From positions 518,118 through 582,117 of the forward strand of contig NZ_JACHHN010000001.1 in assembly GCF_014202765.1 (NCBI RefSeq): a DNA stretch of 64,000 bases. Direction: 5' to 3'. Made by a program: the position numbers and the translations under genes. The notes under the pieces were generated by a model. It was given only the letters and a program-made list of their open reading frames with translations, did no database searches and was not told the origin of the DNA. Source of the DNA: Silvimonas terrae. Lineage in GTDB: Bacteria > Pseudomonadota > Gammaproteobacteria > Burkholderiales > Chitinibacteraceae. Of the stretch, positions 4,487 to 63,896 are shown piece after piece; the first letter of the stretch is position 1; the number at the start of each line of letters is the position of its first letter.

Positions 4487-4521
4487 GTAGGGTGGATTTG
4501 GAGCGGGAGCGACAATCCACC
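4487..4521. repeat. GTAGGGTGGATT...AATCCACC palindrome
   Basis: Short imperfect palindrome reading GTAGGGTGGATT, then a variable middle, then ACAATCCACC. Related copies lie at 17233-17267, 21454-21488, 21942-21974 (reverse), 32041-32075, 43918-43987 (pair) and 63820-63896 (pair). Non-coding, REP-like. Confidence 0.75.
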
Positions 4522-4547
4522 GTGGCGGTCGTAAAAGCTTGAACTGC

Positions 4548-5514
4548 TGTTAGCGCCTGACGGCGCGGTGGTTTTGATACCGGCGGTGGCCGGAGCACGT
4601 TACTTTCTTTGTTTCGCCAAAGAAAGTAACCAAAGAAAGGCGACCCCTGCGACAGCGCCCTTCGGGTTCCCTGCGCTTCTCGCAAAGTCCGGCTGGCTCC
4701 AGCCCCGCTGCCACTGTCATCCGATGGGATGATCGACTTTGTGGGGGTACCCCCAAGGGGCAGGAACTCGCCCTTTGGGCTCAAACACCCTTACGCCGAA
4801 ACGCCTCGGCGGCCCCCCGTACTTCGCTGCGATGCTCGGCGCTGCCGGAGGGGAGGTACGTCAAAAGCAACTTCAACATCAAAAGCACCGGCAACATCAA
4901 GAGCCAAAGCCAAAGCCAAAGCCAAAGCCAAAGCCAAAGCCAAAGCCAAAGCCAAAGCCAAAGCCACTCAACCCAGGCAAACCATCTGCTTGCAAGAATG
5001 GTTCACCGTGCCCACCACTGCGTCATTCCCGCGAAGGCGGGAATCCAGCGGCAATATTGGCAAGTATGAAGGCGTTATCCCCAGCCCACTGGCTCGTCAT
5101 TCCTGCGGAAGCAGGAATCCAGTCCGCAGCCCAACGGGCTGCTTGCGGTGGAGGACCACCACCACTCCGAACCCACCCTGCAGGCATGCATACATCGCAG
5201 CTGGATTCCGGCTCAAGGCCGGAATGACGAGGTATTGGAATGCGTGTTGAATTGGCCGTTGCTGTTGCTGTTGCTGTTGCTGTTGCCGTTGCTGTTGCCG
5301 TTGCTGTTGCCGTTGAAGTTGGGATTGTTTTTGACTTTTCCTCCCCGTTAAAGCCAAGCGCCGAAGGAGTGGAGGAGACCCAAGGCTCCCGACCGACGGA
5401 GGGGGCCGCCGAGGTGGCGAAGCAAGTTGCACGATAAATGTGTACTGCAAATTAGGGTGCTCCCGCCACCGCGGGTATCAAACGCCTTTCAAACCCGCGC
5501 CGCAAGGCGCTAAC
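4548..5514. repeat. composite inverted-repeat element, copy 1 (bilateral)
   Basis: The left end starts GTTAGCGCC and the right end finishes GGCGCTAAC; both arms carry matching blocks (GATACC, the TGGCCGG/GAGCAC block, TTCGCC, the GCGCCG block and a CAAAAGCAAC-type block). The left arm ends in about ten GCCAAA units (4902-4966) and the right arm contains GYTGTT units (5254-5315), the complementary low-complexity tract. The left arm also holds a perfect hairpin around TTACTTTCTTTG/CAAAGAAAGTAA. Open frames here encode only KAKA, PKPK, LLLL or VAVA runs and are not genes. Other copies: 9921-10280, 17284-17690 (left half only), 21514-22377 and 32090-32829 (bilateral). Confidence 0.8.
5021..5230. 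repeat. three CGTCATTCC...GGAATCCAG palindromes
   Basis: Three units inside composite copy 1: 5021-5049 and 5095-5122 in forward orientation and 5201-5230 reversed. Each has inverted CATTCC/GGAATC halves around a short variable GC-rich centre. The half-site layout recalls the neisserial dRS3 family (from memory, not checked). More copies at 10243-10280, 17179-17206, 17650-17690, 21890-21917, 32415-32442, 32521-32563, 43870-43912, 44009-44036 and 44113-44139. Confidence 0.75.
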
Positions 5515-5558
5515 ACTATGTTCAAGGGTTCAAGGGTTCAGCCAAACCGGCAAACCAC

Positions 5559-8433: not shown

Positions 8434-8493
8434 TGCGTGTCTGGCCCGGCTGCGTACATTGCAAGCATCCCATCCCCGTCGTGGAGCTTGCCC

Positions 8494-9920: not shown

Positions 9921-10280
9921 TTTAGCGCCTGACGGCGCGGGTTTTAAAAGCATTTGATACCGGCGGTGGCCGGGGCACGTCACTTTCTTTGCTTCGCCAA
10001 AGAAAGTAACCAAAGAAAGGCGCCCCCTGCGACAGCGCCCTTCGGGTTCCCTGTGCTTCTCGTGAGGGCCGGCTGGCTCCAGGGAACTCGGGCTTTGCCC
10101 TCAAACACCCTTACGCCGAAACCCCGGCCCTCCCTGCGATGCTTGGCGCTGCCGGAGGGGAAGAAAGGTCAAAAGCAACTGCAACGTCAAAGGCGACAGC
10201 AATGCCAGAGGCAAAGACAACAGCAACACGCACCCCACTGACTCGTCATTCCGGTCCGGCCCCCTTGAGCCGGAATCCAG
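9921..10280. repeat. composite element, copy 2 (left half only)
   Basis: Starts TTAGCGCCTGACGGCGCGG and carries the TACCGGCGGTGGCCGG block, the TTTCTTTGCTTCGCC hairpin and the CAAAAGCAACTGC tract, then ends in a CGTCATTCC palindrome (10243-10280). There is no mirrored right arm and the hexamer tract is degenerate. It lies between the aminotransferase and the semialdehyde dehydrogenase, two genes likely to act together. The rest of 9847-10399 shows no gene. Confidence 0.75.
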
Positions 10281-10399
10281 CAGGCCGCCGCAGGTGGCCT
10301 TGCCTTGGCAAACGTGACGACGCAAACAAACAACCGGCAGGCCGGAGTGAACCCACCATCCGGCCAGCCCAGCATTAACCTGAACCAGGAATACAAAAC

Positions 10400-11923
10400 A
10401 TGACTTCCAATCAAGACATCAAACAACTTGCCGCCGCGCTGCACTGGATCGGCGGCCAGCAGGTTCCAGGCGCTTCCAGCCGGTTTGGCGAGGTGTTCAA
10501 TCCCAGCAAGGGCGAGGTGAGCGGGCGGGTGGTGCTGGCGACCACTGAAGACGTCGCCACGGCGGTCGCTAGTGCGAAGAAGGCGTTTCCGGCGTGGGCT
10601 GCCACCCCGCCGCTGCGCCGGGCGCGCGTGTTGTTCAAGTTCTTGCGGTTAATGGAAGAAAACCTGGAAGCGCTGGCTACCTTGATCAGCCAGGAGCACG
10701 GCAAGGTCGATGCTGATGCGCTGGGCGAGTTGCAGCGCGGCCTGGAGGTGGTGGAGTTTGCCACCGGGATTCCGCAATTACTCAAGACAGAGATGACCGA
10801 GAATGTCGGCACCGAGGTCGACAGTTTTTCTTTGCGCCAGCCACTAGGCGTGGTCGCCGGTATCACGCCGTTCAATTTCCCGGCCATGGTGCCGATGTGG
10901 ATGTTCCCGGTGGCGCTCGCCTGCGGTAACTGTTTTGTGCTCAAACCGTCCGAGCGCGTGCCTGGCGCGTCGCTGGAAATTGCCCGCTTACTGAAAGAAG
11001 CCGGTTTGCCCGATGGGGTATTCAACGTGGTGCAGGGTGACAAGATGGCGGTGGATGCGCTGCTGGATCACCCGGACGTGCAAGCCGTCAGCTTTGTCGG
11101 TTCCACGCCGATCGCGCGTTATATCTATGAACGCGGTACTGCCAACGGTAAGCGGGTGCAGGCGCTGGGCGGGGCCAAGAATCATATGGTGGTGATGCCC
11201 GATGCCGATATGGACCAAGCCGCCGATGCCTTGATGGGCGCCGCCTACGGTGCCGCTGGTGAGCGTTGCATGGCGATCTCGGTGGTGGTGCCGGTGGGCG
11301 AGGCAACGGCCAACACCTTGCGGTCCAAGCTGGTGGAACGTCTTGCCAAACTCAAGGTGTCCCACTCTCTGGATCAAACCGCAGAAATGGGCCCGCTGGT
11401 CACTGGTGCGCATCGGGACAAGGTGAAAGGGTACATTGATGCCGGCGTGGCGGAAGGGGCAGAGCTGGTGGTCGATGGCCGGGGCTTTGCACTGGCCGGG
11501 TTCGAAAACGGTTTCTTCCTGGGCGGCTCCCTGTTTGACCATGTGACGCCATCCATGAAAATTTACCGGGAAGAAATCTTTGGCCCGGTGCTGGCCATGA
11601 GCCGGGTGGCGGATTACGCCGCCGCCGTCAAACTGGTCAATGAGCACGAATTTGGCAACGGGGCGGCCATTTTCACGCGGGATGGGGGCACGGCGCGGCA
11701 CTTCACGGCGTCGGTCCAGATTGGCATGGTGGGTGTGAATGTGCCGATTCCGGTGCCGATGGCGTTCCACAGCTTTGGTGGCTGGAAAGCCTCCTTGTTT
11801 GGCGACCACCACATGCATGGACCAGAAGGCGTGCGTTTTTATACCCGTCTGAAAACCGTCACCCAACGCTGGCCGGGCAACCGCCAGGCCGGCCCGGAAT
11901 TTGTCATGCCCAATATGAAGTGA
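10400..11923 (+). CDS. mmsA: CoA-acylating methylmalonate/malonate-semialdehyde dehydrogenase
   Basis: 507 aa aldehyde dehydrogenase. The signature [11 protein letters not shown] contains the catalytic Cys, and [19 protein letters not shown] is typical of the MmsA/IolA/BauC subfamily. These enzymes lack the usual general-base Glu and form acetyl-CoA or propionyl-CoA with loss of CO2, using NAD+. With the preceding aminotransferase this gives a beta-alanine (or beta-aminoisobutyrate) route. A strong terminator follows at 11970. mmsA and bauC cannot be told apart by sequence alone. Confidence 0.92.
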
Positions 11924-11969
11924 CCGCCTTACGCGTGGTGACCCAGCACCATGGGTGTGCTACAGGCCC

Positions 11970-12005
11970 AAAACAAAACCCCGGCTCTGGCCGGGGTTTT
12001 GTTTT
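11970..12005 (+). terminator. rho-independent terminator after mmsA
   Basis: AAAACAAAACCCCGGC, a four-base loop region, then the reverse complement ending GGTTTTGTTTT. The A/T tails on both sides make it potentially bidirectional. Confidence 0.9.
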
Positions 12006-12008
12006 ATC

Positions 12009-12024
12009 GGTGATCCAGATCACA
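12009..12024. promoter_or_regulatory. CRP-like binding site
   Basis: GTGA-TCCAGA-TCAC is a perfect inner match to the CRP/Vfr consensus TGTGA-N6-TCACA. It lies in the AT-richer 350-bp gap 11924-12274, about 250 bp upstream of the SMR-like gene. That gap holds no other gene. Regulation is inferred from the site only. Confidence 0.5.
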
Positions 12025-12274
12025 CCCATTTTTGTAAGGAAAAATGCTGGAAATGACCCGACCCCTAAATGTAGTTGTTTTTATGAAACTACAAGGTGTT
12101 GTTTGCTGCCGTTTATCCGAAACACTTTATCGAGCCAGCTTGCTGAAAGGCTGCAAATTACTGCAAAATCACCAATGCTTTCTGTGTGAGAAAACTTTTA
12201 GTTGTTGAAACTGAAACAATGGAAAGTTATTGTAATTGTGCAATGCAACGAATCGTAAGCCCTGGAGGGAACGC

Positions 12275-12649
12275 ATGTCCCGGCTCATTTTCACGCTGAT
12301 CCTGATTAGTGTCAGTTGTTCGGCCTGTGCGCAAATGCTGCTCAAACGCGGCATGGTGGATGAAGGTATCCAGCGCGCACTGCATTCCATGAACTTGCCT
12401 GCGCTGGCCACTGGCGTGGCGCTTAATCCGTGGGTGCTAGGTGGCCTGATGCTTTATTTTGGCGGCGCGGTGGTGTGGCTTGGCGTGCTGGCGCGGGTGG
12501 ATGTCAGCACCGCGTATCCGTTTGTGGCACTGGGTCTGATCGTGACCGTGGTGCTGGGCGGACTGGTTTTCAATGAACAAATCTCGGCCTGGAAGATTGT
12601 GGGCAGCTGCATCGTGGCGCTGGGTGTTTACATTGTGGGGACCAAATGA
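12275..12649 (+). CDS. EamA/SMR-family small membrane transporter (ArnE/ArnF-like)
   Basis: 124 aa with four hydrophobic helices, the size and layout of SMR/ArnE-type flippase subunits; the C-terminal half (STAYPFVALGLIVTVVLGG, then NEQISAWKIVGSCIVALG) is the EamA-like repeat. ATG 12275 follows GGAGGGA; the upstream ATG-frame extension has no such site. It overlaps the next gene by 4 bp (ATGA), so the two are translationally coupled. It likely moves a lipid-linked sugar across the inner membrane. The substrate is inferred from the UbiA-fold neighbour. Confidence 0.75.
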   Translation: MSRLIFTLILISVSCSACAQMLLKRGMVDEGIQRALHSMNLPALATGVALNPWVLGGLMLYFGGAVVWLGVLARVDVSTAYPFVALGLIVTVVLGGLVFNEQISAWKIVGSCIVALGVYIVGTK

Positions 12650-14136
12650 GCACAACCGATTTTGCAGCGCAGGCGGCACAGCCAGCGCAACCTGGACCCG
12701 CACAGCGTCCGCGCTATCTGTTTGTGGATCTGGATGGCACGCTGGTGGCCACGGATATGCTGGTTGAATCCCTGCTGTTTCAGGTCAAGCGCTCGATCTG
12801 GACTTTTTTCCGCGTCATTTTCTGGTTGTTTGGCGGCAAGGCTGACCTGAAAAAGAAACTGGCCACCGATTTTGAATTCGACCCTTCGCTGCTGCCGTAT
12901 AACCCGGCGGTGCTCAAGTATATGGATGAGTCGCGCAAGGCCGGCGTAGAGGTCTGGCTGGCGACGGCTTCTGACGAGCGAATAGCCGCGGCGGTAGCCA
13001 GGCATCTCAACGTGTTCGATGGGGTGCTGGCCTCGGGTAATGGGGTCAATGTCTCCAGCTCGCGCAAGCTTGATGCCATCAAGCAGGTGGTGGGGCAGCG
13101 CAGTTTTGAATACATCGGCAACAGTGCGGATGATGTGGCGATCTGGCAGGAGGCGGGCGTGGCCCGTTGCGTGCGGCCAGATAGCACGGCGCGGGCGTGG
13201 TTCATGCGCACACAAGGCCAGGTGGCCGAATTGACCAATGATGTGCCCGTGCGTGGTATGTGGAAATCCTTTGTGCGGGCAGCCCGGGTGCATCAGTGGC
13301 TGAAAAACATCCTGGTGTTCATTCCGCTGCTGGTTTCGCACAAGCTGGGCGACTTTGCGTCTGCCGGTGCGGGCGTGGCGACCTTCATCGCTTTTGGCCT
13401 GTGCGCGTCGTCGATCTATCTGGTCAATGATTTGCTGGATCTGGAATCTGACCGGCTGCATCCGCGCAAGCGCAAGCGTCCGTTTGCTTCGGGCGAATTG
13501 CCACTCGGCGTGGGCTTTGTCGCGGTGCCAGTGCTGCTGCTGGCCGGCCTCTTGCTGGCTGCGGTGATCTCGCCGCAATTGCTGGCCGTGTTGTTGGTGT
13601 ACCTGGTGCTGACCAGCGCGTATTCGTTCAGCTTCAAACGCAAGATGGCGGTCGATGTGGTGCTGCTGGCGGCGCTTTATACCATCCGTATCATTGCGGG
13701 CGCTGCGGCCATTGCAGTGGTGCCGTCGTTCTGGCTGCTGTCGTTCTCCATGTTCATCTTCCTGGGGCTGGCGCTGGTCAAACGGTACACGGAATTGCTG
13801 GCACTGGAAGAAGCCGGGCGGGACAAAGTGTCTGGCCGCAATTACCTGGTGGCCGACCAGTTTGTGGTGATGGCCATGGGCGTCTCCAGTTGCCTGTTGA
13901 GCGTGCTGGTGCTGGCGCTGTATATCAACAGCCCGGATGTTGGCCCCCTGTACAAAACGCCGCGCGTGTTGTGGGCGCTGTGCCCGCTGCTGATGTTCTG
14001 GGTTTGCCGCCTGTGGCTGATGGCCAATCGCGGCCTGGTGCAGGATGACCCGGTGGTCTTTGCCGTGCGTGACCGGGTGAGCCAGCAAACGGCCGTGGTG
14101 GCGGCCATCATCGTGGCGCTGGGGGCGTTCCTGTGA
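12646..14136 (+). CDS. HAD phosphatase--UbiA prenyltransferase fusion
   Basis: 496 aa. Residues about 24-200 are a HAD domain (FVDLDGT nucleophile, ATAS motif II, GNSADD motif IV). Residues about 225-496 are a UbiA-type transferase with eight or nine helices, the first Asp-rich motif NDLLDLESDR and a degenerate second region around DVVLLAALYTIRI. The nearest known function is decaprenyl-phosphate phosphoribosyltransferase, joining PRPP to polyprenyl phosphate, with the HAD part removing the 5-phosphate. The overlapping flippase-like gene and the downstream polytopic protein fit a polyprenyl-phosphate pentose route. The product has not been identified. Confidence 0.82.
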   Translation: MSTTDFAAQAAQPAQPGPAQRPRYLFVDLDGTLVATDMLVESLLFQVKRSIWTFFRVIFWLFGGKADLKKKLATDFEFDPSLLPYNPAVLKYMDESRKAGVEVWLATASDERIAAAVARHLNVFDGVLASGNGVNVSSSRKLDAIKQVVGQRSFEYIGNSADDVAIWQEAGVARCVRPDSTARAWFMRTQGQVAELTNDVPVRGMWKSFVRAARVHQWLKNILVFIPLLVSHKLGDFASAGAGVATFIAFGLCASSIYLVNDLLDLESDRLHPRKRKRPFASGELPLGVGFVAVPVLLLAGLLLAAVISPQLLAVLLVYLVLTSAYSFSFKRKMAVDVVLLAALYTIRIIAGAAAIAVVPSFWLLSFSMFIFLGLALVKRYTELLALEEAGRDKVSGRNYLVADQFVVMAMGVSSCLLSVLVLALYINSPDVGPLYKTPRVLWALCPLLMFWVCRLWLMANRGLVQDDPVVFAVRDRVSQQTAVVAAIIVALGAFL

Positions 14137-14170
14137 GCCTGTCGTTGACGTGCTGGACCAGGAGTGCCCC

Positions 14171-15337
14171 ATGATTGAAGATGTGGCTGTGCTGACGCCA
14201 CAAGCCCCGGCGCGCTCGGGCCGGTCTTTGCTGGACCGCGTGACCACGCTGGTACGGGTGATCCCGTTTCTGGCGGTGTTCTTTGTCAGTTGTGCGGCGG
14301 CTTATGGTGCGTTCTTTGCCAAATGGGGCTTTTGTAGCGTTGGCCCGGATGCCAGCGCGCCCTGTTTGCTGCAAGAGATGCTGGATGGCACGGCCAAACG
14401 GCCGTGGATTTACCGCCGGCTGTTACCAGAACTGGCGCAATGGCTACAGGCGCACACCCCGGCCGGCTTGCAGGCCCGACTGCAAGAGATCCTCCAGTTT
14501 GACAACATGGCCCAGCATTACTCGAGCGTGATCGCGGCGGTGAATCAGCCCGCCGGCATGCAGATGACGTTCTACTACGTGTACCTGCTGGGGTTTCTGG
14601 CCTTTGCCGGCGCGGCGCTGATCTTGTGGCGCGTTGGTGTGGCACTGACGGCAGACCGTTTTGCCTCTGCCATTGCGGCCACCGTCTTTGTGCTGGTTTT
14701 TCCCATGTTTCTCACTGTCGGTGGCAACTTCTACGATTTCACCGAACTCTTTTTCTATGCGCTGGCATTCTGGCTGGCGCTGCGCTTTGCGCCGGTCTGG
14801 CTGGTGTTGCTGGCCCCCCTGGCCACGTATAACAAAGAAGCTTTTTTCTTTTTCTCTATCACCCTGTACCCCTTGCTGGCCCACCGTTTTGGCTGGCGCA
14901 AAGGGGCGCTTTGGGCGGGGTTGACTGTGCTGCTCAGCGGGATGACCTATTCGCTGGTCAAAGCCCACTACGCGGGCAATCCGGGCGATATGGTGCAGTT
15001 TCACCTGTGGCAGCAACTGCAGTACTTTCGCTACCTGGGGCATTTGAAGGGGTTTGAATTCCAGTACGGCTTCATCACCCCCAAGAGTTTTAACCTGATC
15101 AACCTCTTGCTGGTGGCGCTGGTGGTGCGTGCTGGCTGGCCGCAATTACCGCGCTATGTGCGGCAGTATCTGTGGCTGGCGCTGTTGATCAACGTACCGC
15201 TGTTTTTGCTGTTCTGCTATCCGGGTGAAATGCGCAATCTGAGCATGTTGTACATGGGTCTGGTGACCATGCTGGCCTGCGGGCTCTCTCATGCCTTGCG
15301 GCGTTTCTATCAGAATCAGGCCCAGACCACGCCTTGA
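14171..15337 (+). CDS. polytopic membrane protein, possible lipid-linked-sugar glycosyltransferase
   Basis: 388 aa with about ten hydrophobic segments, mostly aromatic-rich. ATG 14171 is chosen for its AGGAG site; an upstream TTG at 14150 has none. A periplasmic-looking N-terminal loop contains CSVGPDASAPC with two Cys and the motif RPWIYRRLLPEL, and a short segment FYDFTELFFYALAF follows. I do not recognise a named family. Size, topology and position after the HAD-UbiA gene are compatible with a GT-C-like transferase or acceptor-site protein, but no catalytic motif is certain. Confidence 0.65.
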   Translation: MIEDVAVLTPQAPARSGRSLLDRVTTLVRVIPFLAVFFVSCAAAYGAFFAKWGFCSVGPDASAPCLLQEMLDGTAKRPWIYRRLLPELAQWLQAHTPAGLQARLQEILQFDNMAQHYSSVIAAVNQPAGMQMTFYYVYLLGFLAFAGAALILWRVGVALTADRFASAIAATVFVLVFPMFLTVGGNFYDFTELFFYALAFWLALRFAPVWLVLLAPLATYNKEAFFFFSITLYPLLAHRFGWRKGALWAGLTVLLSGMTYSLVKAHYAGNPGDMVQFHLWQQLQYFRYLGHLKGFEFQYGFITPKSFNLINLLLVALVVRAGWPQLPRYVRQYLWLALLINVPLFLLFCYPGEMRNLSMLYMGLVTMLACGLSHALRRFYQNQAQTTP

Positions 15338-15384
15338 GGCTCTGGTAGACTGGCAAGCCCGAATCCGGACAGGCCCGTGTTTTC

Positions 15385-15822
15385 ATGAAAGCTGCTTCCA
15401 GGCGCAATCCTCCTGTTTCTAGCCGTACCAGCCGGCCGCTTCCCGTCCTGGTGGCCATGCTGGCCGCGCTGGTGTTCTCGCTGGCCGCCATCATTCTGGC
15501 TTCCCGTGCTTATGATCGGCGCGATGGCACCGTGGCGGCGCAGGGCAAAGTGGTCAACATGATTGGCTCGGACGCCAACAGCAAGCCACTGGTGCGCTTT
15601 AGCACCGCAGATGGCCAGATCATTGATTTTGTCCCGTTGCAAACCGGCAAGTGGCCCGCGCTGCATCACGGCGACACCGTTGCCGTCATGTACCCGCCCG
15701 ATCGCCCTGGCGCCGCCCAGGTCAACCAGTTCACCGAGCAATGGCTGCCTGCCATTGTCTGTGGCGCGGCCGGTCTGCTGGCCTGGCTGGTGGCCCTGGT
15801 GTTGCGCCGCAAAGCCCGCTGA
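15385..15822 (+). CDS. DUF3592-like two-helix membrane protein
   Basis: 145 aa. One helix near residues 22-42 and one near 119-140 bracket a small beta-rich domain with the DUF3592 pattern (GKVVNMIG, then VRFSTADGQIIDF and GDTVAVMYPPDRP). Function unknown in this family. It follows the polytopic protein by 47 bp and could be in the same transcript, but nothing ties it to the same pathway. Confidence 0.7.
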   Translation: MKAASRRNPPVSSRTSRPLPVLVAMLAALVFSLAAIILASRAYDRRDGTVAAQGKVVNMIGSDANSKPLVRFSTADGQIIDFVPLQTGKWPALHHGDTVAVMYPPDRPGAAQVNQFTEQWLPAIVCGAAGLLAWLVALVLRRKAR

Positions 15823-15913
15823 ACCCGCCATATCGCCGCTTTGCATTGCGTAGGCCCACACCCGGTTTAGCATGAACAGGGTGAGCCGTTGATTCATTCC
15901 TCTGGAACCCGCC

Positions 15914-17077
15914 ATGTTTGATACCTTGCGCAGCTTCGAACCGGAGCTCACTGAAATCCGCCGCAGTATTCATCGCCATCCGGAGCTGGGCTTTGAAGAA
16001 AGCCGCACCAGCGACCTGGTGGCAGAAAAACTGGCAAGCTGGGGCTATGAAGTTCACCGTGGCATCGCCAGAACCGGTGTCGTCGGCGTGCTCAAGGCGG
16101 GTACCGGTCACAAAACCCTGGGCTTGCGGGCCGATATGGACGCCTTGCCAATTCACGAGGCAACCGCCAAACCGTGGGCCAGCCAGATCCCCAATCGCAT
16201 GCATGCCTGCGGACATGATGGTCACACCACCATGCTGCTGGGGGCCGCGCGTTATCTGGCGCAAACCCGCAATTTTAATGGCACGCTCAATCTGATCTTT
16301 CAGCCCGCTGAAGAAGCCCTGGGTGGTGCGCAGGCCATGGTCGAGGCGGGCGTGTTCCGGCGTTTTCCGTGTGATGCCATTTTCGGCATGCACAATATGC
16401 CGGGGTTACCGGTGGGCCAGTTCTATTTTCGCAGCGGCGCGTTCATGGCCTCGGCCGATAGTCTGGATGTCACCATCCACGGCAAGGGTGGGCATGGCGC
16501 CTTGCCGCACACCACGGTCGACCCGATTGTGGTTGCGGCCAGTATCACCCTGGCACTGCAGACCATTGTGTCGCGCAATATCGATACCCAGCATGCGGCT
16601 GTGATCACCGTCGGTTCGATCCAGGCTGGCGATGTGGCTAACGTGGTGCCGGCCAGCGCGCTGATGAAACTGAGCGTAAGGGCGCTTGACCGGCAGGTAC
16701 GCAAACTCTTGTTAAGCCGCATTGAAGATGTGGTACGTCTGCAGGCGCAAAGCTTTGGTGCCACCGCCACCATTGAAACCCGCCACGGCACGCCCGTGCT
16801 GGTCAACGACGAAACCCAGACGCGCTTTGCCCACGGCGTGGCGGCGCAATTGTTTGGTGAAGCCAGCGCCCATTACGGCGCCCGGCCGTTGATGGGCAGT
16901 GAAGACTTTGCCTATATGCTCGATGCCAATCCCAACGGTTGTTATTTCTTTATCGGGAATGGCGATGGGGAAGGGTCTTGCATGATCCACAACCCTGGAT
17001 ATGACTTTAATGATGGCTGCCTGACGCCGGGGGCAGGGATGTGGGTGGGGCTGGCGGAAGGGTATTTGAAGGCTTGA
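15914..17077 (+). CDS. M20-family amidohydrolase (hippurate/N-acyl amino acid hydrolase type)
   Basis: 387 aa cytoplasmic metallohydrolase. Metal-binding residues are recognisable in LRADMDALPI, HACGHDGH, QPAEEALGG and, near the C-terminus, MGSEDFAYML. A dimerisation insert begins GKGGHGALPHTTVDP. Members remove acyl groups from amino acids (hippurate, N-acetyl amino acids, IAA conjugates). Start follows a weak ribosome site. It stands alone before a repeat block, and the substrate cannot be set. Confidence 0.87.
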   Translation: MFDTLRSFEPELTEIRRSIHRHPELGFEESRTSDLVAEKLASWGYEVHRGIARTGVVGVLKAGTGHKTLGLRADMDALPIHEATAKPWASQIPNRMHACGHDGHTTMLLGAARYLAQTRNFNGTLNLIFQPAEEALGGAQAMVEAGVFRRFPCDAIFGMHNMPGLPVGQFYFRSGAFMASADSLDVTIHGKGGHGALPHTTVDPIVVAASITLALQTIVSRNIDTQHAAVITVGSIQAGDVANVVPASALMKLSVRALDRQVRKLLLSRIEDVVRLQAQSFGATATIETRHGTPVLVNDETQTRFAHGVAAQLFGEASAHYGARPLMGSEDFAYMLDANPNGCYFFIGNGDGEGSCMIHNPGYDFNDGCLTPGAGMWVGLAEGYLKA

Positions 17078-17178: not shown

Positions 17179-17267
17179 CGTCATTCCTGCGGAAGCAGGA
17201 ATCCAGTGTGGGCACCGCAGGTGGCCAGGCGGGTAGGGTGGATTTGGAGCGTTAGCGACAATCCACC
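17179..17267. repeat. CGTCATTCC and GTAGGGTGG palindromes
   Basis: A CGTCATTCC...GGAATCCAG unit (17179-17206) is followed by a GTAGGGTGGATT...AATCCACC unit (17233-17267), directly before composite copy 3. Confidence 0.75.
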
Positions 17268-17283
17268 GATTGCGATGGCTGCG

Positions 17284-17690
17284 TGTTAGCGCCTGGCGGC
17301 GCGGGTGTTTTTAGATACCCGGAGTGCCGGGCCCACGTCCCTTTCTTTGGGGCCGCCGAGGTGCTTCGCCACCTCGGCGGCCCCAAAGAAAGGAACCAAG
17401 GCGCCCCCTGCGACAGCGCCCCTTCGGGGTTCCCTGTGCTTCTCGCAAGGCGCGGCTGGCTGCGGGAACTCGGCCTTCGGCCTCAAACACCCCTTCGCCG
17501 AAACCCCCCGCCTTGCTGCGATGCTCGGCACTGCCGAAGGGGAGACAAGTCAAAAACAACGGCAACATCAAAAGCAACCCCAACCCCAACCCCAACCCCA
17601 ACCTCGCAAACCGTCTGCCAGCAAGCTTGGTCTGTGCATCTCCGCACTTCGTCATTCCCGACCTCGGGGGCCCCCTTGGCGGGAATCCAG
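17284..17690. repeat. composite element, copy 3 (left half only)
   Basis: Starts GTTAGCGCCTGGCGGCGCGG and contains a variant hairpin in which GGGGCCGCCGAGGTG and its complement replace the usual TTACTTTCTTTG stem. It ends with CCCCAA units (17576-17604) and an expanded CGTCATTCC palindrome (17650-17690). No right arm. The remaining DNA to 17936 shows no convincing gene. Confidence 0.75.
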
Positions 17691-17936
17691 GGGACCGCCG
17701 GGGACGGCAACCACAGATGGCCTGTACCATCAGCCCATCACCACGACCACACTAGCAAACGCCTCACCACGTGACCCCAGTCACACCAGTTTGTACCTCC
17801 CCGTATCAATTACCCGCCGCGACACCCACCCATACACGGCACGCCCGTCCAGCCACTTGGCGCTTACATCTGTATGCAATTGGCGGCCATTGCCCGTGTT
17901 AACCTGGTATCCGTGTTCAGTCATGCAGGGATGCGC

Positions 17937-18257
17937 ATGAAAGTAGTGAGTTTGCTGGTCACCGGCCTGGTGCTGGTTGGCGCGAGTTATGTGGCCGGGG
18001 CGGTCGATGGCGTGCCGCCGCCGTCAATGAATGACAGCGACTGGAGTGCGTCTGCGCCGCAAGGCCGGTGCGGGCCGCCGCCGGCTCTGAAAGACGATGG
18101 TGATAGCACGGTTGAGTCTGGCCAGCACGGTCATCGTGGCCCGCCGCCAGATGGCCCGGGTGGTCCAAATGATTCTGGTCGCAGCGGCAAGCACCGGCCG
18201 CCGCCGAAAGAGGCGTCTGGTCCACCGCCAGCGCCGCAAGGATGCGGTATGCAGTGA
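17937..18257 (+). CDS. small secreted proline-rich protein
   Basis: 106 aa. An N-terminal signal peptide (MKVVSLLVTGLVLVGASYVAGA) is followed by a disordered region with repeated GPPP or RPPP blocks and two Cys (one in GRCGPPP, one near the end in GCGMQ). ATG 17937 has AGGG six bases upstream; ATG 17931 is a possible alternative. Not recognised as a named family. A terminator follows at 18323. The protein composition and correct signal peptide support a real gene despite low complexity. Confidence 0.6.
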   Translation: MKVVSLLVTGLVLVGASYVAGAVDGVPPPSMNDSDWSASAPQGRCGPPPALKDDGDSTVESGQHGHRGPPPDGPGGPNDSGRSGKHRPPPKEASGPPPAPQGCGMQ

Positions 18258-18362: not shown

Positions 18363-19265
18363 TCAACGCAGCATGGCGTCGCGGATTTCGCGCATGCCAA
18401 TCAGCTTGAAACCGCGTTCCTCAACCGCCCGGCCAAACTCGTCACTGCCCAGCAGCAGCCGGTCTGCTACCCGGGTTGCCACGTCGGGAGCCAGGGTACG
18501 CAGTTCTGGCGTGTCATCGGCGGGGTGACCGACCAGCACATGCACGCCAGCCTCACGGCTATCGAGCCATTCACAGGCAAAAGCCAGCCGCTCTTTTTGT
18601 GCCAGTTGCTTGTTGAATGGCAGGCCGGCAAAGCTGTCTACCAATACGGTTTTACCCGTTGCGGCGGCTTGCTGGAACTGCTGGGCGACGGCTTCGCCTT
18701 CTGCCAGCGGGATCACGCACATGTCTGCCACGGTCTGGCCATCGACATCCGGGATCAGGGTAGGCACGCCGTTTTGCGCTGCCAGATCAAGGTAAATGGG
18801 CATCAACGCCGGGTGATACAGCGTGAGCATATGGCTGTCCACGTGGGTGATATCCACCCCGAACTGGCGGGCACGGGCAATCTGCGCGGCCAGTTCCCTG
18901 TGTGCGGCGGCAGGGTCGCCCTTCAGGTGTGTGGGGCGGGCCAGGTTGTGAAAATACCCTTGTTCATCCACCAGCCCGCTGGCCGGGTCATGTGTGGTCA
19001 GCGGGGCCCAGCGATAGCGCTGGCGTTCTGAGTTGAGCGTCAAATGCACACCCAGATCGGCCTTGCTGCCCAGTTTGCTGGCCATTTCTGCGGCATACGG
19101 AAACCAGCTGCACGGCACCATGGTAGAGGCCGAACTCAACAGACCCGTGTTCACCAGCGCCTCCCAGGCGCTGACGGTGGCCTCGCACATGCCCACGTCG
19201 TCGGCATGGGTGATCAGAAGGCGATCATTGGCGCTGAACCCCAGTTTTTCCTGCAAGGTGCTCAT
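18363..19265 (-). CDS. ChbG/HpnK-family (YdjC) carbohydrate deacetylase
   Basis: 300 aa polysaccharide-deacetylase-like TIM-barrel enzyme. Motifs include LITHADDVGMCE (metal Asp pair) and ITHVDSHMLTLYHP (metal His). The family removes acetyl groups from chitooligosaccharides (ChbG) or hopanoid intermediates (HpnK). ATG 19265 has GGAG six bases upstream; the frame is open for 115 more codons without a ribosome site. A chitin role is plausible because a GH18 chitinase lies 9 kb away, but they are not in one operon. Confidence 0.82.
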   Translation of the reverse strand: MSTLQEKLGFSANDRLLITHADDVGMCEATVSAWEALVNTGLLSSASTMVPCSWFPYAAEMASKLGSKADLGVHLTLNSERQRYRWAPLTTHDPASGLVDEQGYFHNLARPTHLKGDPAAAHRELAAQIARARQFGVDITHVDSHMLTLYHPALMPIYLDLAAQNGVPTLIPDVDGQTVADMCVIPLAEGEAVAQQFQQAAATGKTVLVDSFAGLPFNKQLAQKERLAFACEWLDSREAGVHVLVGHPADDTPELRTLAPDVATRVADRLLLGSDEFGRAVEERGFKLIGMREIRDAMLR

Positions 19266-19935: not shown

Positions 19936-21336
19936 ATGGCAATCAGCGTTTTCGACCTCTTCAAAGTGGGCATCGGCCCATCCAGTTCTCACACGGTGGG
20001 CCCCATGCGCGCCGCGCGGCAGTTTGTGCAAAGGCTGGCGAAGGACGGCACGCTGGCGCAAGTGAACAGCATCAGGGCCGAACTGTATGGTTCATTGGGT
20101 GCCACCGGGAAAGGCCACGGCTCTGATGTGGCCGTGATGCTGGGTTTTTGTGGCGAAGAACCCGACACGGTGGATGTCGATAGCGTACCCGCGCGCATCG
20201 CCACCATTCGCGCCGCGCAACAGATTGATCTGTTGGGCGAGCACCGCGTCACGTTTCGCGAGCCGGAACACCTGATGCTGCACAAGCGCAAAGCCCTGCC
20301 GTATCACCCCAATGGCATGATTTTTGAGGCATTCGACGCTGCCGGCAACAGCCTGTCGCGGCGCGCGTATTTCTCTGTTGGCGGTGGTTTTATTGTGGAT
20401 GAAGCCGCCATTGAGGCTGGCTTTACCCCGCCCGATGTCACCCGGTTACGTCACCCGTTTGCCACCGCAGCCCAACTGTTGGCGCTGTGTGCGCAAGAAG
20501 GCAAACCTGTCAGCCAGATCATGCTGGAAAACGAGTTGGCCTGGCGCGATGAAGCCACTATCCGCAAGGGTTTGCTGGCGATCTGGCAGGTGATGCAGGA
20601 CTGCGTAAAACGCGGTTGCGAACGTGAAGGCGTGCTGCCCGGCGGCATGAAAGTCAAACGCCGGGCTGCGCAGTTATACCGCAAGCTCACCAGCACGCCC
20701 GAAGCAGGGCTTTCTGACCCATTGACCGTGATGGATTGGGTCAACCTGTACGCGCTGGCCGTCAACGAAGAAAACGCTGCGGGCGGCCGCGTGGTGACCG
20801 CTCCCACCAACGGTGCTGCCGGCATCATCCCGGCGGTGCTGCATTACTACGCGCGCTTTGTGCCCGCCGCGACGGAAGAAGGCATCGTCCGCTTCATGCT
20901 CACGGCCGGCGCAATTGGCATTCTGTTCAAGCTCAACGCCTCGATCTCTGGCGCAGAAGTGGGTTGCCAGGGCGAAGTGGGCTCGGCTTGTTCCATGGCG
21001 GCAGGCGCACTGGCAGAGGTGCTGGGCGGTACGCCACAACAAGTAGAAAACGCGGCGGAAATTGGCATGGAACACAACCTGGGGCTGACTTGTGATCCGG
21101 TGGGCGGATTAGTCCAGGTGCCGTGTATCGAGCGCAATGCCATGGCGGCGGTGAAAGCCATCAACGCCGCACGGATGGCGTTACGGGGCGACGGTAGTCA
21201 TTTTATTTCGCTGGACCGGGTGATCCGCACCATGCGGGAGACGGGGCGGGATATGCACACCAAATACAAGGAAACGGCCCGTGGCGGGTTGGCGATTGAG
21301 ATTGTTGAAGTGCCGGTGAATATTGTGGAGTGTTAG
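19936..21336 (+). CDS. sdaA: L-serine ammonia-lyase (single-chain, Fe-S)
   Basis: 466 aa enzyme converting L-serine to pyruvate and ammonia. The start [20 protein letters not shown] is family-typical. The C-terminal alpha domain holds the [4Fe-4S] cysteines in [19 protein letters not shown] and [18 protein letters not shown]. Length matches the fused alpha-beta enzymes of Gram-negatives. The only upstream regulatory element seen is the tandem glycine riboswitch, linking it to glycine/serine overflow. Confidence 0.95.
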
Positions 21337-21385: not shown

Positions 21386-21488
21386 TAGCCCGGATGGAGG
21401 CCATCGGGCCGGGAATCCGGGGGCTGGTTTAAATTGTGGGGGGTAGTTAGTGCGTAGGGTGGATTCGGAGCGGTAGCGGCAATCCACC
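21386..21488. repeat. GTAGCCCGGAT and GTAGGGTGG palindromes
   Basis: One GTAGCCCGGAT...GGAATCCGGGG unit (21386-21424) and one GTAGGGTGGATT unit (21454-21488), side by side before composite copy 4, the same order as at 31992-32075. Confidence 0.72.
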
Positions 21489-21513
21489 ATGGTTGGCTTG
21501 CTACATGAACCGC

Positions 21514-22377
<864 letters not shown>

Positions 22378-31871: not shown

Positions 31872-31991
31872 GCTTGTTTCCTGGGCGGGTGGGGTGGATG
31901 AAAACGTTTTCGGTGGAGGGGTAATTTACCGGGTTCTGGCGGGGAGGTGGGATTGGGTGAATACCCTGGGGCGTGTGAAGAGGGCTGTTTT

Positions 31992-32075
31992 GTAGCCCGG
32001 ATGGAGCCGAAGGCGGGAATCCGGGGTGGCGATGTTAGCTGTAGGGTGGATTCGGAGCGGTAGCGACAATCCACC
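31992..32075. repeat. GTAGCCCGGAT and GTAGGGTGG palindromes
   Basis: GTAGCCCGGAT...GGAATCCGGGG (31992-32030) followed by GTAGGGTGGATT...AATCCACC (32041-32075), repeating the pair seen before composite copy 4. Confidence 0.72.
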
Positions 32076-32089
32076 ATTACGATGTGTGT

Positions 32090-32829
32090 GTTAGCGCCTT
32101 ACGGCGCGGTTGGTTTGGATACCCGGAGTGCCGGGCCCACGTTACTTTCTTTGCTTCGCCAAAGAAAGTAACCAAAGAAAGGCGACCCCTGCGACAGCGC
32201 CCTTCGGGTTCCCTGCGCTTCTCGCAAAGTCCGGCTGGCTCCAGGGAACTCGGGCTACGCCCTCAAACACCCTTACGCCGAAACCCCGGCCCTCACTGCG
32301 ATGCTCGGCGCTGCCGGAGGGGAGGTACGTCAAAAGCAACGACAACATCAAAAGCAACCCAAACCCTGCAAACCGTCTGATTGCAAGAATGGTGAGTTTA
32401 CTTTCCCACGAACTCGTCATTCCTGCGGAGGCAGGAATCCAGTCCGCAGCCCGGCGGGCTGCTTGCGGTGGAATACCGTACCAGTCTGAATCCACCACGA
32501 AACTTGTGCAGGTATCGTAGCTGGATTCCGGCGCAAGGGGGCCGCCGAGGACCGGAATGACGAGTCAGTGGAATACACGTTGAATCGGCCGTTGCCGTTG
32601 CCGTTGCCGCTGCCGTTGGGGTTGCTTTTGACTTTCCTCCCCCATTAAAGCCCAGCGCCGAAGAAGGGAGGGAGACCCCAGGCTCCCGACCGACTGAGGG
32701 CAGCCCGGAGGGCCGCCAGGCTGGGGTCGCCTTTCTTTGGGGCCGCCGAGGTGGCGAAGCAAAGAAAGTAACGTGGGCCCGGCACCCCGGGTATCAAACG
32801 CCTTTCAAACCCGCGCCGAAGGCGCTAAC
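32090..32829. repeat. composite inverted-repeat element, copy 5 (bilateral)
   Basis: Begins GTTAGCGCC and ends GGCGCTAAC. The arms match over GATACCCGGAGTGCCGGGC and CACGTTACTTTCTTTG-type blocks, closer to each other than in copies 1 and 4. The left hexamer tract is degenerate (CAACCCAAACC), the right has GTTGCC units (32589-32618). It contains palindromes at 32415-32442 and 32521-32563, the second with an insert. The rest of 31872-32932 holds no gene. Confidence 0.8.
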
Positions 32830-32874
32830 AAACGCTTTTAACATCCCAGGCATACCACCTCCACCAACCACACC

Positions 32875-43843: not shown

Positions 43844-43869
43844 GGAGGGGGAGACTGACATACCCCGGA

Positions 43870-44139
43870 CTCGTTATTCCGGTCTTCGGCGGCCCCTTGC
43901 GCGGGAATCCAGTACCTGTAGGGTGGATTCGCGTAGCAATCCATCGGTTGCAGGTGGATTGTCGCTATTGCTCCAAATCCACCCTACGCCACTGGCATAC
44001 CCCTGGCTCGTCATTCCTGCGAAAGCAGGAATCCAGTTGTAAATGATTGCACCGCAGGCGCTGAACGGGGTTTGGGCAGCACGCATGAAAAAGCCCGCCT
44101 GCGGCGGGCCTTCTGGATTCCGGCGTTCGCCGGAATGAC
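43870..44139. repeat. cluster of short palindromes
   Basis: Contains CGTTATTCC-type (43870-43912, with an inserted GGCGGCCCC block), a facing pair of GTAGGGTGG units (43918-43987), CGTCATTCC (44009-44036) and a reversed CTGGATTCC unit (44113-44139). No gene in 43844-44209. Confidence 0.72.
44087..44110 (-). terminator. terminator of the SPFH gene
   Basis: On the minus strand, GGCCCGCCGCAGGCGGGC followed by TTTTTC. It lies about 100 bp beyond the SPFH stop. Confidence 0.75.
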
Positions 44140-63819: not shown

Positions 63820-63896
63820 GTAGGGTGGATTCGGAGCGGTAGCGACAATCCACCACCGCGATGGTGGATTGTCGCCTTGCTCCAAATCCACCCTAC
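63820..63896. repeat. facing pair of GTAGGGTGG palindromes
   Basis: GTAGGGTGGATT...AATCCACC and its reversed copy (GGTGGATTGTCG...CCACCCTAC) meet head to head, forming one larger inverted repeat. Same arrangement at 43918-43987. Confidence 0.78.

Follow-up and report, generated by a model that had tools for sequence, protein, structure and literature searches.

In a 64,000-nt stretch of the Silvimonas terrae genome (hereafter the window; GCF_014202765.1, NZ_JACHHN010000001.1:518,118-582,117; genome size 4.83 Mb), positions 12275-15337 of the + strand hold three open reading frames (ORFs) in the order SMR-type protein, HAD-UbiA fusion and polytopic membrane protein, which we refer to as P1, P2 and P3. 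P1 (12275..12649, +) is a 124-residue protein with four hydrophobic segments, reminiscent of the four-transmembrane (four-TM) SMR and ArnE-ArnF proteins and a candidate subunit of a polyprenyl-phosphate-ribose flippase. P2 (12646..14136, +) spans 496 residues and features an HAD phosphatase module (residues ~21-195) followed by a UbiA-type polyprenyl-phosphate phosphoribosyltransferase module (~204-494), while P3 (14171..15337, +) is a 388-residue polytopic protein from an unnamed family and a candidate periplasmic ribofuranosyltransferase. The P1 and P2 frames overlap by 4 bp (ATGA at 12646-12649), and a 34-bp gap with an AGGAG ahead of P3 separates the latter from P2; the ORFs thus lie as described in an earlier note on this DNA (the original prediction), including the 4-bp coupling. 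The trio is found at the same site in all four Silvimonas genomes searched and is therefore no chance arrangement of reading frames.

The predicted presence of HAD and UbiA domains in one protein is borne out by P2, which matches the corresponding Pfam families (1.6e-8 and 3.1e-21) and scores 615.6 bits against NCBIfam model NF006088 (cut-off 351), with decaprenyl-phosphate phosphoribosyltransferases as the runner-up NCBIfam models, under their own cut-offs. Such HAD-UbiA fusions are common in Pseudomonadota, exceeding the family cut-off in 48 of 398 genomes. The closest PDB sequence is 8j8j (1.1e-28 over residues 204-485), the mycobacterial phosphoribosyl pyrophosphate (PRPP):decaprenyl-phosphate phosphoribosyltransferase Rv3806c. 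We compared the 12 residues that the Nature Microbiology paper on Rv3806c (PMC10994848) names as contacts of PRPP, Mg or pyrophosphate or as lining that cleft; in the sequence alignment with 8j8j, 10 of them are identical in P2, with R22, K28, Y70, N73, D77, K87, R90, Y138, K143 and Y157 of Rv3806c corresponding to R214, K220, Y258, N261, D265, K275, R278, Y326, K331 and Y345, respectively. A PRPP pocket, proposed earlier as a check on the UbiA domain, is thus largely conserved. P2 further carries the UbiA phosphoribosyltransferase motifs N-D-x-x-D-x-x-x-D and R/E, and its N261, D262, D265, D269, R380 and E383 are the counterparts, as set by motif and spacing rather than by aligning the protein itself, of N247, D248, D251, D255, R366 and E369 reported for Citrobacter ORF15 (PMC11127046). 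The HAD module displays D28, D30 and T32 within FVDLDGTL, a DxDGT motif with the catalytic Asp, as well as a later DD pair.

Domain matches for P1 are weak: EamA (2.5e-6) just equals its cut-off, the scores for SMR and ArnF fall short of theirs, and the best NCBIfam model, ArnF NF002816, reaches 5.6e-9 and 36.5 bits relative to a 99-bit cut-off. The earlier description of an SMR-like first protein therefore stands as regards an SMR-type partner, albeit on a weak domain match. P1 homologues adjoin other HAD-UbiA genes, and a profile built from 14 P1-type proteins, taken from HAD-UbiA loci and from P3 loci, matches EmrE (5.1e-5) in an alignment that leaves TM1 of EmrE outside. SMR multidrug exporters feature a glutamate in TM1 (Glu14 in EmrE); upon sequence inspection TM1 of P1 shows no acidic residue, which makes a drug-exporter role unlikely, and we rejected a multidrug function.

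P3 was initially described as an unrecognised ten-helix protein. It does remain unrecognised, with nothing above cut-off in Pfam or, for the window's copy, in NCBIfam, and with chance matches only among PDB sequences; its polytopic nature is likewise retained, whereas ten helices are not confirmed, hydropathy yielding eight clear TM segments and a marginal stretch near residues 220-238. Hydropathy and charge together place the N-terminus inside and an 84-residue outer loop after TM1, which holds D/E72, P78, Y81 and R82. All 25 homologues have Asp or Glu at position 72, and the residues invariant across the same set comprise W52, P78, Y81, R82, P178, G184, Y188, D189, E192, N221, K222, E223, G272, G300, P343, L344, E353, R355, N356 and S358. 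In this simple topology model most invariant charged residues map to outer loops, with K222 and E223 outside them, an arrangement that appears compatible with, though no proof of, a GT-C enzyme. The one named relative found among genome contigs is a Silvimonas amylolytica protein (L036, 78% identity), and a scan of viral contigs with P3 profiles returned no relative.

We then asked where P3 occurs and what surrounds it. Of 398 genomes sampled across the phylum, just one, that of the window itself, gives a convincing P3 match, two short matches interrupted by stops (L122, L123) having been rejected as chance. Homologues are present in 4/399 genomes of the order, in 16/268 genomes of G551's family (every one from genus g291), in 4/294 genomes of G769's family (every one from genus g48) and on eight plasmid records from Caballeronia, Sphingomonadaceae and Burkholderia, the members of these last three groups having been found by tblastn on plasmids only. 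As the genome profile searches score few candidates per genome, this spread is a lower bound. For linkage we assembled 32 loci (28 + 4) by P3 similarity alone and scanned them with UbiA, HAD and SMR profiles. A UbiA synthase adjoins P3 in 26 of the 32, within five of six Pseudomonadota groups (Silvimonas 4/4, g291 16/16, Burkholderia 2/2, Sphingomonadaceae 3/3, g48 1/4, Caballeronia 0/3); among these linked loci 25 also show an HAD match (the exception being L159) and 21 an SMR match. The parts occur in four different orders, with HAD either fused or separate: SMR-[HAD-UbiA]-P3 in Silvimonas and G1145; HAD-UbiA-SMR-P3 with a separate HAD gene in g291, where 8 of 16 genomes carry a second, tandem P3; [HAD-UbiA]-P3-SMR with overlapping P3 and SMR genes in the two Burkholderia records; and P3-[HAD-UbiA] on Sphingomonadaceae plasmids, whose records label P3 a hypothetical protein and its neighbour a UbiA family prenyltransferase. 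Given that the HAD-UbiA background amounts to 48/398 Pseudomonadota genomes, we infer that adjacency by chance in five groups is very unlikely; co-occurrence of the genes across genomes, another check proposed at the outset, is observed across genera. Elsewhere, G769 combines an orphan P3 with two HAD-UbiA genes at other places in its genome, and polysaccharide genes (for a deacetylase, a glycosyltransferase and an EpsG family protein) lie close to the Caballeronia copies.

DprE1 is the epimerase of ribose-to-arabinose conversion. We compared the P3 loci with 38 HAD-UbiA loci devoid of P3, drawn from 37 of the 47 other genomes over the cut-off plus G039. A DprE1 homologue lies within the fetched stretch in 30 of these 38 loci and in 0/32 P3 loci. 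Fisher's test on 30/38 versus 0/26 linked P3 loci gives p = 4e-11, a value computed on loci related by descent, for which reason we prefer the per-group counts; some fetched loci (e.g., L075, L078, L102) stop at a contig end, so absences there are of lower quality. Whole-genome searches found no DprE1 in the genome of origin (G000) or in that of a second Silvimonas (G001), relative to 2.6e-167 in control genome G378, and returned only partial matches in the remaining two Silvimonas genomes (G002 and G003; 24-26% identity, near 1e-3) and weak ones in G769 (best 4.5e-5, 23%). As the P3 loci are without DprE1, the sugar of P3 cassettes is most likely ribose, as in Citrobacter O1. The pathway kind originally proposed, based on a polyprenyl-phosphate pentose, is largely supported, and the pentose can be narrowed to probable ribose.

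These data support a model, to which we assign a probability of roughly 70%, where the three-gene cassette both produces polyprenyl-phosphate-ribofuranose and consumes it. P2 would use its UbiA domain to load 5-phosphoribose, on the cytoplasmic side of the membrane, from PRPP onto polyprenyl phosphate (probably undecaprenyl phosphate), and its HAD domain would take off the 5-phosphate; a probably dimeric P1 would flip the lipid-linked ribose to the periplasm, where P3 would hand ribose, rather than xylose, to an envelope acceptor not encoded nearby. Every proposed step except P3's own family has published precedent in Kelly et al. 2024 (PMC11127046), whose system combines a polyprenyl-phosphoribose synthase that includes an HAD phosphatase domain with a small flippase and with a transferase of the GT-C type, represented in Citrobacter youngae O1/O2 by ORF15 (PRP-PPPRS), ORF14 (flippase) and ORF12 (GT136), respectively. 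Both synthetic steps were shown biochemically for the ORF15 HAD-UbiA fusion, so that the original suggestion of one protein for two consecutive steps, supported by P2 homology, is not new. The flipping step is inferred in Citrobacter as well, and further candidate loci are predicted in the same work, among which P3 homologues may already figure. The pathway kind is therefore published, and what is new is the unnamed P3 family in the last-enzyme slot, for which the genomic case is strong. Among the literature matches listed since 2022 for such pentofuranose systems, a scope that leaves supplements and most subscription papers outside, PMC11127046 is the only relevant one, and none of the listed Silvimonas papers appears to concern its glycans.

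Among known systems, the cassette shares with C. youngae the HAD-UbiA fusion, matching catalytic motifs, a small four-TM flippase gene and one polytopic partner, and with O1 in particular the lack of an epimerase, O1 using ribose without one and O2 a single short-chain dehydrogenase/reductase (SDR) epimerase of the ORF13 type (PMC11127046). Unlike in C. youngae, it lies outside an O-antigen locus, and P3 differs from ORF12 in size and domain make-up, as judged from the published description of ORF12 only. The mycobacterial decaprenyl-phosphoryl-arabinose pathway (Rv3806c, Rv3807c, DprE1/E2, Rv3789; PMC10994848) has a largely shared PRPP site and an SMR-type flippase, proposed there, but relies on a separate phosphatase unrelated to HAD and on the DprE1 partner not found with the Silvimonas cassette. 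ArnE/ArnF, by their NCBIfam names the 4-amino-arabinose-phosphoundecaprenol flippase, provide P1's best NCBIfam model, yet P1 is one gene instead of two and attains 36.5 of 99 bits. Finally, the gtr O-antigen glucosylation cassettes similarly combine a donor synthase, a flippase and a specific last enzyme (PMC11127046); the gtr donor synthase, however, is GtrB using UDP-glucose rather than a UbiA-type enzyme using PRPP, and P2 is without the GtrB layout of a small TM anchor and a cytoplasmic glycosyltransferase domain.

As in gtr cassettes, the last gene of the Silvimonas trio is the variable one. Protein identities between G002 and the window are 98.4% for P1 and 94.1% for P2 but only 44.9% for P3; genes at 8437, 10400 and 15914 stand at 91-94%, and other neighbours are lower (88% at 19936, 85% at 18363, 75% for a DUF3592-like protein). 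The corresponding P1, P2 and P3 values are 97.6, 92.9 and 78.3% for G001, and 86.3, 80.2 and 57.5% for the more distant species G003. DNA identity between the window and G002 falls at the P3 start and returns just past its end, and the nonsynonymous and synonymous distances (dN, dS) are 0.52 and 1.50 for P3 versus 0.04 and 0.62 for P2. Within g291, P3 distances are a median of 1.37 times the UbiA distances (5-95% range 1.06-2.20, 120 pairs). In Silvimonas the same ratio is 8.2-9.1 when G002 is compared with the window and with G001, falls to 2.7 between G002 and G003, and lies at 2.4-3.7 in the remaining pairs. In the P3 tree (34 P3 rows, L158 and L160 left out) G002 joins G003 (support 100/95 and 92/92), a placement rendered unsure by its long branch, whereas the P2 tree sets the window, G001 and G002 apart from G003 (90/98). 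This points either to allele exchange or to very rapid divergence confined to P3. The tandem copies of g291 split into two clades (99/97 and 81/87), suggesting one duplication kept by several species. We put forward tentatively, with somewhat less than even confidence, that P3 represents a new family of periplasmic ribofuranosyltransferases serving epimerase-free cassettes of alpha- and betaproteobacteria and of plasmids, that it modifies a surface acceptor whose genes lie elsewhere, and that P3 allele exchange switches acceptor or linkage while the donor genes stay fixed.

Several observations weigh against the ribofuranose model or its last step. As the original prediction noted, no glycan acceptor genes are encoded near the trio. 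Two PRPP-site residues differ in P2, where Gln135 of Rv3806c (ribose O3) is replaced by Thr323 and Lys208 by Val395, the latter adjoining Lys394. P3 lacks a synthase next door in 6/32 loci (three each in Caballeronia and g48), and the SMR match is missing in five of the 26 linked loci (L144, L151, L159, L169, L170). The GT87 family (PF09594) matches only 2 of 25 P3 sequences, weakly (E up to 1), with a best score of 18 bits relative to a curated cut-off of 25. An AlphaFold model computed from two sequences (the window and L036 proteins) has a mean predicted local distance difference test score (pLDDT) of 41.5, too poor for a fold comparison. Of the three outcomes named at the outset as refuting the prediction, none was obtained; as regards the fold, this reflects the unusable model and not a passed check. 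Profile comparison of P3 with PMT_2-type GT-C and GT87 proteins gives probabilities below 1%; as the same comparison between PMT_2-type GT-C and GT87 is likewise negative, and two known GT-C families thus fail to find each other, we do not count this result against P3. Lastly, the DprE1 negative leaves aside a single SDR epimerase resembling Citrobacter ORF13 and encoded at an unlinked site, for which no search was made.

The alternative that best withstands the data, which we nevertheless consider unlikely, retains P1 and P2 as makers and flippers of polyprenyl-phosphate-ribose but casts P3 as a second flippase, a scaffold or a carrier-recycling protein, with transfer by an unlinked GT-C enzyme. 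The poor model leaves the P3 fold unproven, and six loci (L111, L162, L163, L143, L146, L171) carry P3 without an adjacent synthase; moreover, among 37 HAD-UbiA loci without P3 (L071 being dropped as no P2 was called), 19 encode a different large polytopic protein on the same strand no more than five genes away, against 18 without one, so the transferase may often be unlinked. A second flippase would, however, be needless in the 21 linked loci where an SMR gene already stands beside P3, the many invariant polar residues (including D189, E192, K222, E223, E353, R355 and N356) are enzyme-like, and tandem duplication in half of the g291 genomes would fit two acceptor specificities. Slightly less probable still is a pentose other than ribose, produced by an unlinked epimerase that turns lipid-linked ribose into xylose or arabinose before export: the single SDR epimerase of Citrobacter O2 is a precedent (PMC11127046) and any genome encodes many SDRs, but the DprE1 searches above, negative in all P3 loci and in G000 and G001 and limited to partial matches in G002 and G003, argue for ribose. 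A reading of P2 as a conventional UbiA prenyltransferase, for aromatic or other substrates, that merely happens to be fused to HAD is highly improbable, and an aromatic function was rejected, because P2, despite matching the broad Pfam UbiA family, has phosphoribosyltransferase K/R residues and a KRxxE stretch (within LVKRYTELL) in place of the second Asp-rich motif of UbiA enzymes, which is present in paralogue L001, while its own genome holds three other UbiA matches.

The donor-making half of the ribofuranose cassette is a recognised marker of pentofuranose-containing surface glycans. If P3 is indeed a second last-enzyme family, the transferase slot would be filled by different families, and P3 would serve as a genomic marker of ribose decoration outside O-antigen loci and would be a candidate glycosyltransferase family for which an assay with a farnesyl-phosphate donor already exists.

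The trio is preceded by an aldehyde dehydrogenase gene (10400-11923, named from sequence) and followed by a gene for a small DUF3592-like membrane protein (15385-15822, under the family cut-off). The latter, a two-TM protein, begins 48 bp past P3, has a counterpart at this position in each of the three further Silvimonas genomes, is also variable (73, 75 and 38% identity) and may be a member of the operon. Upstream, a consensus scan places a weak promoter-like site at 12205..12233 (+, 9/12 matches), one of two found in 11800-16000 versus a chance expectation of 1.1. A GC-rich hairpin with T runs was spotted by eye at ~11970-12010; as it is missing from the terminator scan, the operon limits are not proven.

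Outside Silvimonas, the P3-[HAD-UbiA] pairs on three Sphingomonadaceae plasmids from Arabidopsis leaves (L144, L169, L170) have genes for a tyrosine recombinase and a relaxase in their vicinity, suggesting that the cassette may be mobile. P2 homologues occur on 87 plasmid records, 36 of them from Rhizobium, where they may be connected with arabinosylation of Nod factors or of the surface. In G002 a stand-alone UbiA synthase, the second in this genome, lies (contig C7; L120, 8480-9781) beside a divergent-PAP2 protein (DUF212, 1.8e-31) and amid apparent nucleotide-sugar and ABC-transporter genes, an arrangement resembling the mycobacterial one. In G272 (L097, 8596-11731) an SMR gene, a gene for a 428-residue polytopic protein without a Pfam match and an HAD-UbiA gene lie side by side, with no DprE1; the P3-profile match of the 428-residue protein is not significant, and it is possibly a further unnamed third component. 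In G769 (L118, 683-9796) HAD-UbiA is followed by three large polytopic proteins (649-746 residues), of which the one scanned has no Pfam match. Finally, an interspersed intergenic repeat family recurs at seven places of the window (4487-5516, 9950-10400, 17230-17960, 21454-22377, 31984-32833, 43865-44124 and 63820-63896), its longer pieces being ~76-93% identical and some of the copies being inverted.

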